Of a stretch of 64,000 nt of DNA, positions 36,755 through 42,787 are shown in pieces. Position numbers and translations under genes: made by a program. The DNA comes from Massilia timonae CCUG 45783 (GTDB lineage Bacteria > Pseudomonadota > Gammaproteobacteria > Burkholderiales > Burkholderiaceae_D). The notes under the pieces were generated by a model. That model was not told the DNA's origin, did not search any database, and saw nothing but the letters and a program-made list of their open reading frames with translations. The stretch lies in the NCBI RefSeq assembly GCF_000315425.1, contig NZ_JH992922.1:522873-586872 (forward strand). Reading direction: 5' to 3'. Every line of letters begins with the position of its first letter. Within the stretch, counting starts at the first letter, position 1.

Positions 36755-38092
36755 TCAGACCGCGTCGGACAGCGAGGTGAAGTTGAAGTCGCGCACCTTC
36801 ATCGGCGGCAGCACCATCTGGAACGGCACTTCGTCGCCGCCGATGATCTGCGGCTTGCCCAGTTCGTCGATATTGTTCAGGATCGTGACCGGGCTCTCGT
36901 TGAAGCGGAAGTTCTTGAGCGGGTACTTGATCTTGCCGTTCTCGACGTAGAAGGTGCCGTCGCGGGTCAGGCCCGTGAGCAGCAGCGACTGCGGATCGAC
37001 CATGCGGATATACCAGGTGCGGGTGACCACGATGCCCTTCTTGGTGCCTTCGATCAGCTCTTCCAGCGACTTGGTGCCGCCCGCCATGATCATATTGCCG
37101 TGACCCGCGGTGGCGCGCTTGCCGGTCTTCTGCGCCCAGTAGCGCGAGTAGTCGAGCGAGGCGACGCGGCCATCCTTGACCAGCTCGGTGCGTTCGCGCG
37201 CCAGCAGCGATTCGTTGTCCCATGGCGCGACCGGCACGTCCTTGTCCCACGGGTCGGCCCAGATGTTCACCTGGCTGTCGAACAGCTTGTCGCCCAGGCG
37301 GTTCTTGCCGCCGGCCTTCGACAGGAAGCTGCGGCCCTCGTCGGCCGAACGCGCGTCGAAGGCGCCGAACATATTGCCGAGGATTTCCGAGGTCGCCGCC
37401 GGCTCCAGGATCACGGTGTAGCGGCCCGGTTCCAGCGCGCGCGCCTCCACCGAACGCAGCGCCTTCTCGATCGCGATCTCGGCCGCTTCGCGCGCGTCGA
37501 AGCGCGCGGCGTCGACCGCCGAGCGGGTCACCCAGCCGGAACCGCGGCCGTCCTCGGTGCGCGCGGTGAGGCTGAACGACAGGTCGGTGAAGTCCTGGTG
37601 GCCGAACACGCCGTTCGAGTTGGCGATGGTCGAGAAACGGGTGCTGTCGGTGAAGAAGCCGGCGGTGACCAGCTTGTTCTTGCGCGCCAGCTCGATGCAG
37701 GTCGCCGCCACCTCGGCCCGGAAGTCCGGGTCGATCGCCGCGGTCTTGGGCACGAAGGTGGTGGTGGCGCGGTATTCCTGCTTGGCGATGGCGGGCATGA
37801 ATTCCGGATTCTCCGGCGCCAGCTTCGCCAGTTCCTCGGCGCGGCGCACGGCCTTTTCCAGCGACTTGTCGTCGAATTCGTTGATCACGGCGGTGCCGCT
37901 GCGCTTGCCGAAGGCCACGCGCACGACCAGCTGCATGTCTTCGGTCAGGCCGGCGGTCGACACGCTGTTGCGCGCGAAGCGCACGTTGCCGACGCGGCTG
38001 CCTTCGATCCCCACCGTGCACTCGTCGGCTTTCGACAGCGACAGCACGCGATCGGTGATACGTTTTGCTTGTTCCTGATTCAGGGATTTCAT
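36755..38092 (-). CDS. TldE/PmbA-family protein, copy 1
   Basis: A 445-residue member of the TldD/TldE (U62) family. It lacks the HExxxH metal site, which marks the TldE (PmbA) partner; in E. coli TldD and TldE form a metallopeptidase that trims unfolded peptides such as the microcin B17 leader. Typical segments are [39 protein letters not shown] and [20 protein letters not shown]. No signal peptide is present. It is 10 nt from its TldD partner and closely resembles copy 2 at 39805-41139. Confidence 0.92.
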
Positions 38093-38102
38093 CCTGGTCT
38101 CC

Positions 38103-39740
38103 TTATCCGATCTTGCGTGCGGTATTGATGACGTTGATGCCGTTGAAGCGGGTGGTGCTCGATCCGTGCGACACCGCGCTCACCTGGCTCGGCTGCCCCT
38201 TGCCGTCGAAGAAGGAGCCGCCCATGCGCCAGTCGCGCTCGTCGCAGATGGCCGAGCAGGCATTCCAGAATTCCTGGGTATTCGCCTGGTAGGCCACGTC
38301 CTCGAGCGGGCCGGTGATCTTGCCGTTCTTGATCTCGTAGTACAGCGTGCCGCCGAACTGGAAGTTGTAGCGCTGCTGGTCGATCGAGTAGGAGCCGCGG
38401 CCCAGGATATAGATGCCCTTCTTGACGTCCTTGACCATCTCGTCCGGCGTCAGGCGCGCCTTGCCCGGCTCCAGCGAGACGTTCGGCATGCGCTGGAACT
38501 GCACCGTGCTCCAGCTGTCGGCGTACGAGCAGCCGTGCGATTCCTTCTCGCCGATGATGTGGGCCTGGTCGCGCGTGGCCTGGTAGTTGACCAGGACGCC
38601 GTTGCGGATGATGTCCCACTGCTTGGCCGGCACGCCCTCGTCGTCGTAGCCGATCAGGCCCAGCGAGCCCGGCGTGGTGCGGTCCGCGACAAAATTGACG
38701 CGCTCTGCGCCGTACTTGAATTTCTTGCTCTGCCACTTGTCGAGACCCACGAAGCTGGTGCCGGCGTAGTTGGCTTCGTAGCCGAGCACGCGGTCCAGTT
38801 CCGTCGGGTGGCCGACGTTTTCGTGGATGGTCAGGAACAAGTGTTCGGGGCTGAGCACGAGGTCGTATTTGCCCGGCTCGACCGACTTGGCGCTGAGCTT
38901 CTCGCGCGCCTGCCTGCCGGCCAGGCGCGCATCCTCGACGATGTCGTAGGACTTGGTGTACAGCGTGGTGACGCCGCCGGCGGCGCGCACCTTGTCTTCG
39001 GGACGCGCGTCGAAATATTCATAGCCCATCGAGGCCGGGGCGCCCAGGCCGCCGCGCGAGCGGAACTTGCCGGTGGCCTTGTCGACCGCAGTGGCATTGA
39101 TCGGGGCCCACAGGCGGTGCACGTCCTGGTCGATATAGGAGCCGTCGGTCGAGGCGAAGTATTTTTGCTGGTTGATCTGGAACAGCGAGGCGGTCATGAA
39201 GTTCGCGCCCGCATCCAGGCCGGCCTTGTTGGCGGCGATCAGCATGTCGGCCTTTTCCTTGACCGGCAGGGTGCGCCAATCCTTCTTGATCGGCGTGGCC
39301 CATGCCACTTCGCCCACGCCCTTCACCGGCGCCAGGCGCACCGGCTCGATCTGCAGCCTGGCGTTGGCCTTGGCGATCGCCACCGCCTGGCGCGCGGCCT
39401 GGGCGACGCCGTCCGCGGTCATGCTGTTGGTCGAGGCGAAGCCGTAGGCGCCGTCGGCGATCACGCGCACCCCCACGCCGCTCGATTCGGTATTGTTGAT
39501 GCTTTCGACGTTCAGGTCGCGCGTGACGATGAACTGGTTCAGGTAGCGGCCGATGCGCACGTCGCAGTACGACGCGCCGGCCTGGGTGGCCGCGCCCATG
39601 GCGGTGTCGGCCAGGACCTTCTTGGCGCTTGCCGCCATCGGCTTGAGCAGGTCTTCGGCCGCGATCGCATTGCCGAACACCGGAATGAGCATGGCGCCGG
39701 CAGTGCCGGCGCCGATCTGCAGGAATTGTCGACGTTCCAT
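38103..39740 (-). CDS. TldD-family metallopeptidase with Tat signal, copy 1
   Basis: A 545-residue TldD homologue. The metal site HENVGH (H306, E307, H311) is intact, followed by [16 protein letters not shown]. The N-terminus [20 protein letters not shown] is a twin-arginine signal (RRQFLQ), so the enzyme is likely exported folded, unlike cytosolic E. coli TldD. A cysteine-containing segment near the C-terminus ([20 protein letters not shown]) may supply a further ligand. I chose 39740 as start because it gives the Tat signal; the frame is open 11 codons further. The partner TldE gene follows after 10 nt. Confidence 0.92.
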
Positions 39741-41139: not shown

Positions 41140-41152
41140 GTGCGTCCCTGCC

Positions 41153-42787
41153 TTAGCCGATCTTGCGAGCGGTGTTGATCACGTTGATGCCGTTGAAGCG
41201 CGCGGTCGACGAACCGTGCGAGACGATGCTGATCTGCGGCGGCTGTCCCTTGCCGTCGAAGAAGGAGCCGCCCATGCGCCAGTCGCGCTCGTCGCAGATC
41301 GCGCTGCAGCCGCCCCAGAATTCCTGGGTGTTCGACTGATAGGCCACGTCTTCCAGCATCTGGCCGATCTTGCCGTCCTTGATCTCGAAGAACAGCTGGC
41401 CGCCAAACTGCGAGTTGTAGCGCTGCTGGTCGATCGAGAACGAGCCGTCGCCGATGATGTAGATGCCCTTCTTGATGCCCTTGACCATCTCGTCCGGGGT
41501 CAGCCTGGCCTTGCCCGGCGCCAGCGACACGTTCGGCATGCGCTGGAATTGCACCGTGTTCCAGCCGTCCGCGTACGAGCAGCCGTGCGATTCCTTCTCG
41601 CCGATGATGTGGGCCTGGTCGCGCGTGGCCTGGAAGTTGACCAGGATGCCGTCCTTGATGATGTCCCAGCGCTTGGTCTTGACGCCTTCGTCGTCGTAGC
41701 CGATCGCGCCCAGCGAACCCGGGGTGGTCTTGTCGGCGAAGATGTTGACGATCGGGGCGCCGTACTTGAAGCTCTTCGACTTCAGCTTGTCGACCGTGGC
41801 GAAGCTGGTGCCGGCGTAGTTGGCCTCGTAGCCCAGCACGCGATCGAGCTCGGTCGGGTGGCCGACGTTTTCGTGGATGGTCAGCCACAGGTGTTCCGGC
41901 GACAGCATCAGGTCGTACTTGCCCGGCTGGACCGACTTGGCGGTCAGCTTGCGCTTGGCGTCGCGGCCCGCGGCGCGCGCGTCCTCGACGATGTCGTAGG
42001 TCTCGGTGTACAGCGTGGCGACGCCGCCGGCGGCCTTGATCTTGTGCTCGGGGCGGGCGTCGAAGTATTCATAGCCCTTGCCCACCGGGGAGCTCAGGCC
42101 GTCGCGCGAGCGGAACTTGCCGGTGGCCTTGTCGACCGCCGTGGCCGACAGCGGCGCCCACAGGCGATGCACGTCCTGGTCGATATACGAGCCGTCGGTC
42201 GACGCGAAGTACTTCTGCTGGTTCACCTGGAACAGCATCGTGCGCATGAAGTTGGCGCCGCCTTCCATGCCTGCCTTGTTGGCGGCGATCAGCATGTCGG
42301 TCTTCTCGGCGATCGGCACCGTGCGCCAGTCCTTGGTGTACGGCGTGCTCCACGAAACCTCACCGACGCCCTTGACTGGTGCAAGCTGCACCGGTTCGGT
42401 CTGCAGCCTGGCGTTCGCTTTGGCGATCGCCACCGCCTGGCGCGCCGCGTTGGCGATGCCGTCGTTCGACATGTCCGAGGTCGCGGCGAAGCCGTAGGCG
42501 CCGTTCACGATGACGCGCACGCCGACGCCGGCCGATTCGGTATTGGCCACGTTCTCGACGTTCAGGTCGCGCGTGGTGATGAACTGGTTGAGATAGCGTC
42601 CGATGCGCACGTCGGCGTAGCTGGCGCCGGCCTTGGTGGCGGCGTTCAGCGCGACGTCGGCCAGGGCCTTCTTGGCGGCGACGGGCATCGTGCTGACCAG
42701 TTCCTCGGCAGCGATCGCGCGACCGAATGGCAACAGCATCGAGGCGGCGGCCAGGCTGCTGAGATTGAGAAAGGTACGGCGTTCCAT
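41153..42787 (-). CDS. TldD-family metallopeptidase with Tat signal, copy 2
   Basis: A 544-residue TldD homologue, first gene of the ten-gene cluster. Metal site HENVGH (H305, E306, H310) is intact. The N-terminus MERRTFLNLSSLAAASMLLP is again a twin-arginine signal (RRTFLN), and the C-terminal cysteine segment ([19 protein letters not shown]) is shared with copy 1. Start chosen at 42787 for the Tat signal; the frame is open 34 codons further into the promoter region. Confidence 0.92.
   Translation of the reverse strand: MERRTFLNLSSLAAASMLLPFGRAIAAEELVSTMPVAAKKALADVALNAATKAGASYADVRIGRYLNQFITTRDLNVENVANTESAGVGVRVIVNGAYGFAATSDMSNDGIANAARQAVAIAKANARLQTEPVQLAPVKGVGEVSWSTPYTKDWRTVPIAEKTDMLIAANKAGMEGGANFMRTMLFQVNQQKYFASTDGSYIDQDVHRLWAPLSATAVDKATGKFRSRDGLSSPVGKGYEYFDARPEHKIKAAGGVATLYTETYDIVEDARAAGRDAKRKLTAKSVQPGKYDLMLSPEHLWLTIHENVGHPTELDRVLGYEANYAGTSFATVDKLKSKSFKYGAPIVNIFADKTTPGSLGAIGYDDEGVKTKRWDIIKDGILVNFQATRDQAHIIGEKESHGCSYADGWNTVQFQRMPNVSLAPGKARLTPDEMVKGIKKGIYIIGDGSFSIDQQRYNSQFGGQLFFEIKDGKIGQMLEDVAYQSNTQEFWGGCSAICDERDWRMGGSFFDGKGQPPQISIVSHGSSTARFNGINVINTARKIG

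Follow-up and report, generated by a model that had tools for sequence, protein, structure and literature searches.

Twin-arginine signals on TldD and none on TldE: a probably exported branch of the TldD/TldE metalloprotease in Massilia timonae

In Escherichia coli, TldD/TldE processes peptide precursors inside the cell. Could relatives of this metalloprotease work outside the cytoplasm, and how would a subunit that carries no export signal get there? These questions are raised by a 64,000-nucleotide stretch (hereafter the window) of contig NZ_JH992922.1 of the soil bacterium Massilia timonae CCUG 45783, in which two tandem TldD/TldE copies lie at 36755-42787 on the minus strand. A first-pass annotation had claimed that both TldD copies begin with twin-arginine signals and keep HENVGH and that both TldE copies lack any signal, and these claims were borne out. 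We propose, with a probability of roughly 0.68, that the twin-arginine translocation (Tat) system exports a preassembled TldD-TldE heterodimer with TldE as a hitchhiker, that TldE is a common partner, and that the product is a periplasmic protease encoded in an envelope-maintenance operon. The genes and their predicted signals are as follows.

41153..42787, minus strand: TldD1, a Tat-type TldD of 544 amino acids with the start MERRTFLN and HENVGH at 41858-41875; PmbA_TldD 1st, 2nd and 3rd domains of Pfam; relatives in 79 loci
42707..42787, minus strand: predicted Tat signal peptide of TldD1, 27 amino acids, ending in FGRAIAA at the predicted cleavage site
39805..41139, minus strand: TldE1, 444 amino acids, without a signal, starting 13 bp after tldD1; Pfam match, and match to the PmbA structures 1vpb and 5nj5_B
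38103..39740, minus strand: TldD2, a Tat-type TldD of 545 amino acids with the start MERRQFLQ and HENVGH at 38808-38825; Pfam match; 78.1% identity to TldD1
39657..39740, minus strand: predicted Tat signal peptide of TldD2, 28 amino acids, ending in FGNAIAA, on the same basis as that of TldD1 and likewise with a predicted cleavage site
36755..38092, minus strand: TldE2, 445 amino acids, without a signal, starting 10 bp after tldD2; Pfam match; missing in 7 of the 79 Massilia-group loci, which keep tldD2

Relatives were collected in two sets. The Massilia-group set consists of the best 80 of 173 confirmed stretches, among which Massilia arenae is the closest named relative (99% identity across TldD1); 79 of its loci were used for TldD/TldE counts. 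The wider set consists of 94 stretches from 92 genomes, two of which contribute two stretches each. One of these stretches, L108, itself belongs to the Massilia group, which leaves 93 outside it, and L116 and L117 overlap, which duplicates one TldD and one TldE in the counts. Most genomes of the wider set come from one family, taken as Xanthomonadaceae. A control was formed by 30 canonical TldD proteins, namely those of 40 matches that came with loci.

Tat signals were judged by pattern, which for the Massilia-group TldD was RRx[FLMIV][LMIV]. The N-termini of TldD1 and TldD2 share MERRxFL, an uncharged hydrophobic region (h-region) and AIAA before E. The twin-arginine motif is found in 157 of 157 TldD proteins of the Massilia-group loci and in 138 of 140 TldD rows of the wider set, as against 0 of the 30 canonical TldD, and it is therefore not a chance match. 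The two exceptions are a remote relative in L121 (40% identity, with no operon within its 19.9 kb) and L227, where the frame opens only at residue 53. R3, R4 and F6 are present in 297 of 299 aligned TldD, the other two being gapped. The signal segment has an uncharged 11-residue core in 295 of 296 rows, and 292 of the 296 have [AVIS]-x-A between residues 19 and 40. By pattern, TldD thus has the twin-arginine motif, the uncharged h-region and the small-residue cleavage site of a Tat substrate, and TatC is encoded once in the host genome. Elsewhere the same genome has one canonical-type TldD and one canonical-type TldE, and by eye neither carries such a signal.

TldE starts at its folded domain. 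The 13-bp and 10-bp gaps after the TldD stop codons leave no room for a signal upstream of TldE1 or TldE2, and a scan that took in up to 60 upstream in-frame residues found the motif in 0 of 149 TldE proteins of the Massilia-group loci. Five of 95 TldE rows in the wider set gave a match resembling it (L109, L232, L237, L251 and L252), and on inspection none is a signal: in L109, L232, L237 and L252 the match lies across or before the start codon, and in L251 it is inside the protein and has no hydrophobic stretch. A structure model of TldE1 begins a helix at residue 6, with a mean predicted local distance difference test score (pLDDT) of 78 for residues 1-10, 91 for residues 11-20 and 88 for residues 21-30. 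The models were built from shallow alignments of Massilia-group rows only, with whole-model mean pLDDT of 35.1 for TldD1 and 53.8 for TldE1, and just residues 1-210 of TldE1 were used (block means 58-92). The cysteines of TldE, one to four in the Massilia group, speak neither for nor against export. TldE is thus a leaderless partner of a signal-bearing subunit, as Tat hitchhikers are. Judging by these patterns, the asymmetry is far more general than the window, and many related loci share it.

The two proteins also occur together. Profiles of TldD (E up to 1e-60) and of operon-type TldE (E up to 1e-90), searched against 397 Pseudomonadota genomes, matched the identical 14 genomes and no others. 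The Tat motif is present on TldD in 13 of these, the one without it being G166, the genome of L121. In the two stretches with TldD alone (L157 and L246), the contig end falls before the place of TldE. Hence, TldE seems to be needed by TldD, whichever compartment they work in.

The HExxxH motif of the family is intact in TldD: H305, E306 and H310 occur in 299 of 299 aligned sequences. No HExxxH was seen by eye in the TldE1 or TldE2 sequences. Cys403 is also present in 299 of 299. Cys498, a candidate third metal ligand that aligns by eye, against the canonical TldD of L004, with the E. coli metal ligand Cys454, is a cysteine in 268 of 299 and Ala or Gly in 31; 19 of those 31 are the second TldD of operons ordered D-D-E (D for TldD, E for TldE). 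The set Cys494-Cys498-Asp499 is kept in 80 of 80 TldD2 rows. All four TldD/TldE proteins match the Pfam PmbA_TldD domains 1-3 above the curated cut-offs, and the cut-off of 513 for the NCBIfam equivalog of E. coli-type TldD (PRK10735) was not reached (53.0 and 97.6 bits).

How would such a pair leave the cytoplasm? On our proposal, the two tandem copies belong to a branch of the TldD/TldE metalloprotease that is exported. TldD would fold in the cytoplasm, acquire its metal there and pair with TldE, which is translated from the next gene. The Tat signal of TldD would then take the heterodimer of about 105 kDa (mature TldD1 of 56.2 kDa plus TldE1 of 49.2 kDa) across the inner membrane, and TldE would hitchhike. 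In the periplasm, the signal would be cut off and the closed-shell protease would trim unfolded peptides, taking part in envelope maintenance with the DUF4159, MoxR, DUF58 and BatA-like proteins encoded downstream. TldE would be a common partner rather than a copy-specific one. Excerpts of earlier work describe the E. coli TldD/TldE heterodimer as about 65 Å across (PMC5810440) and the 135-kDa PaoABC as a complex with a Tat signal on one subunit, the export of which needs all subunits (PMC4273604).

The sharing of TldE is suggested by gene numbers. The 79 Massilia-group loci are arranged as D-E-D-E in 70 cases, D-E-D in seven, D-E in one and D-D-E in one, and the doubled D-E-D-E pair is a peculiarity of this group. 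The 94 wider stretches comprise 45 with one TldD and one TldE (L116 among them, with a further TldD apart), 30 D-D-E, 14 D-E-D, one D-E-D-E (L108), one D-E-E, two with TldD alone and one with TldE in two frames before TldD. Two TldD genes per single TldE are thus found in 44 of the 93 stretches outside the Massilia group, although these are not 44 independent events since most of the genomes come from one family.

The first-pass annotation had also read the duplication as old, with copies that differ throughout and probably serve different substrates. The copies do differ throughout: TldE1 and TldE2 are 72.7% identical in protein sequence, DNA identity is 80.6% for TldD1-TldD2 and 78.9% for TldE1-TldE2, and no 150-bp window exceeds 91%. 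The age is bounded, as the duplication arose within the ancestry of the Massilia group, where TldD1 and TldD2 form sister sets in the trees; the other group has separate TldD duplications (FastTree, with several weak forks). Two dedicated pairs, TldD1-TldE1 and TldD2-TldE2, acting on different substrates without cross-pairing, would explain why both pairs are retained in 70 of 79 Massilia-group loci and why the copies differ by 22-27% in protein sequence. We consider this improbable, and the copy-specific reading is not supported by the gene losses, the 2:1 ratio of TldD to TldE elsewhere or the small number of residues that separate the copies. TldE2 is missing in seven loci that keep TldD2. 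In a tree built from the concatenated sequences of four operon proteins for 78 of the 79 loci, the TldE2-less state takes four changes, one of them a further loss in L066, and it can be read as three losses if the gene was never regained. A whole-genome search of the seven D-E-D genomes, at least one of which (L025) is a metagenome bin, gave one operon-type TldE and one PmbA-type match at 25-28% identity. In five of these seven loci, TldD2 shows nonsynonymous divergence (dN) of 0.011-0.048 against synonymous divergence (dS) of 0.174-0.287. The reverse case is found in L079, a metagenome bin, in which TldD1 is kept and TldE1 is reduced to its last 49 residues. Just 11 alignment columns distinguish TldD1 from TldD2 at the 80% level, and no shift of TldD2 towards TldD1 is seen in them after TldE2 loss, a weak test given the 11 columns. 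The retention of TldD2 after TldE2 loss, together with the 2:1 ratios, suggests that one TldE serves two TldDs; from these sequences, it appears to do so.

Several points weigh against export of the heterodimer. The location of every member is predicted from sequence, TldE may stay inside, for example as a chaperone, and TldD homodimers could also account for the surplus of TldD genes. The pair in L121 has no signal on either protein, and the structure models are too poor to judge a TldD-TldE dimer. MoxR and DUF58 proteins are not known to carry signals, so that the operon would not be wholly periplasmic. A TldD homodimer of Sulfolobus has been reported to be active (Hu et al., 2012, as cited in the available text of PMC5810440). 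In an alternative that we regard as unlikely, TldD is exported alone, as a homodimer or a TldD1-TldD2 dimer, and TldE is a dedicated cytoplasmic chaperone that assembles or proofreads TldD and then hands it over to Tat. The archaeal homodimer, the missing signal of TldE and the 44 stretches in which TldD outnumbers TldE would all fit. TldE, however, is a full-length PmbA-domain protein that shares the fold of its partner, and to our knowledge the known Tat chaperones are unlike such a protein. In addition, E. coli TldD is described as active only with TldE, and its homodimer as too unstable for purification (PMC5810440, in part). Very improbable, in our view, is that the TldD N-terminus is no export signal and that the proteases are cytoplasmic. 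Export is deduced from sequence, and the L121 TldD and a Nonomuraea homologue (39% identity, no twin-arginine signal by eye) do without the N-terminal segment; yet the near-invariance of R3, R4 and F6, the h-region and the cleavage pattern, and the absence of the segment from the 30 canonical TldD, argue against it. Preassembled export of TldD with a common TldE is thus the reading that we prefer.

The operon context is an addition to the first-pass annotation. Downstream of tldE2, the window contains the following genes.

36116..36739, minus strand: DUF4159 protein, here without a signal peptide; Pfam PF13709, 172 bits
35108..36112, minus strand: MoxR-type AAA+ ATPase; AAA_3, 217 bits
34209..35093, minus strand: DUF58 protein; DUF58, 105 bits
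33222..34205, minus strand: BatA-like membrane protein; BatA 30.3 bits (cut-off 25.9), NCBIfam two_anch 34 bits (cut-off 23.05)
31145..33238, minus strand: g725, a membrane protein of 697 amino acids with a His-rich stretch; no family above cut-off
29613..31148, minus strand: protein of 511 amino acids with hydrophobic segments at the N- and C-terminus, seen from its translation, possibly the last gene of the operon; no Pfam match (query with one extra leading codon)

From tldD1 to the gene of the 697-residue protein, intergenic distances are -17 to 64 bp, which makes one operon likely, and this run of genes looks like a single operon. In the wider set, 83 of the 94 stretches have DUF4159, MoxR and DUF58 genes downstream of TldD/TldE, and several of the remaining 11 stop at a contig end. 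The window and most of the Massilia-group loci (79 in all) have MoxR, DUF58 and BatA-type genes side by side. Outside that group, BLAST recognised MoxR and DUF58 and no BatA-like gene. The g725 gene is present in most of the 79 loci and, in the wider set, in 39 of 94 stretches; many stretches of this set stop short of its place.

In relatives, the start of the DUF4159 protein resembles a signal. When as many as 45 upstream residues were scanned for hydrophobicity, with start codons not confirmed singly, 83 of the 84 rows from outside the Massilia group (L116 and L117 being one locus) showed a signal-like segment, and the single miss, L177, looks signal-like by eye. The same scan found it in 0 of 80 Massilia-group loci. 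Part of the operon would hence act outside the cytoplasm in those relatives. The second position of the R-x-x-F-L motif is R in 28 rows, A in 24, S in 10, G in 5, K in 5, L in 4, Q in 1 and N in 1, with 6 of 84 unmatched. As Ala, Ser, Gly or Lys often takes the place of the second Arg with F-L kept, many of these signals are not classical twin-arginine signals, and they may use Sec. In the Massilia group, the DUF4159 protein either became cytoplasmic or rides with TldD/TldE. A doubtful extension of the latter is a ternary hitchhiker, in which the DUF4159 protein of the Massilia group would have lost its signal, intact or decaying in other lineages, because it leaves on TldD-TldE, MoxR-DUF58 would assemble and proofread the complex before Tat, and one TldE would be shared by two exported TldDs.

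Some further observations concern the surroundings and the remote relatives. The His-rich stretch of g725 reads HDDHEGHEHG...HGHDHG. The operon is followed at 28573-29541 (minus strand) by a gene of the cation-efflux family. At 42955-43902 on the plus strand lies a methyltransferase-like protein, the likely start of which, MKRLILAAMLATGLAGAAHA, resembles a Sec signal peptide; such a fold would be unexpected in an extracytoplasmic protein. L121, L251 and L252 hold TldD/TldE pairs of the same phylum about 40% identical to TldD1, with a Tat-like start on two of the three TldD; these two are L251 and L252 (TldD at 41% identity), where no MoxR operon lies in the stretch seen. In five Xanthomonas plasmids (H9-H13), the match to TldD1 is confined to its first 100 residues, with 48% identity and no annotated feature beneath. 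A candidate TldD gene fusion in G422 was rejected, as its 1283-residue frame is a stop-to-stop length only and the TldD match ends at the frame end.

If our proposal is correct, the closed-shell TldD/TldE protease would be placed in the envelope as a conserved exported branch, a non-redox enzyme would join the short list of Tat hitchhikers, and a MoxR operon of obscure purpose would gain a testable client. The natural gene losses and the 2:1 ratios make partner sharing directly testable. No title about an exported TldD was found among the literature matches listed for TldD/PmbA, and a search for DUF4159 gave no match.

Known systems resemble this one in part. The Rhizobium genes RL3499-RL3502 (cmdA-D) and the Bat-type MoxR operons, compared here by description, have MoxR, DUF58 and Bat-type proteins in common with the Massilia operon, and the available portions of PMC5700661 and PMC3893208 do not mention TldD/TldE. 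They relate second-hand that mutation of the Rhizobium MoxR operon causes envelope and morphology defects, which suggests a role in envelope upkeep here, the weakest step of our proposal. An uncharacterised Stenotrophomonas operon (NIPOLPBK_01784-01792) contains two TldD, one putative protease, MoxR, membrane proteins and hypothetical proteins, as here, and some of its genes were lower in biofilm in all seven isolates (PMC7688217). It would have a single TldE if the putative protease is TldE, and export is not mentioned in the portions of that paper available. The E. coli TldD/TldE (PmbA) microcin-processing protease (PDB 5NJ5 series) shares the three PmbA/TldD domains, HExxxH in TldD only and the TldE partner, whereas the Massilia TldD is longer, has a Tat signal, scores far below the equivalog cut-off and is encoded in an operon with MoxR. 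The Tat hitchhikers HybOC and PaoABC, as outlined in excerpts of PMC4273604, have the signal on one subunit, a leaderless partner and a size range within which TldD/TldE falls. Unlike these redox enzymes, TldD/TldE, for which co-transport is proposed here, would be a metallopeptidase carried across the membrane in the same manner.

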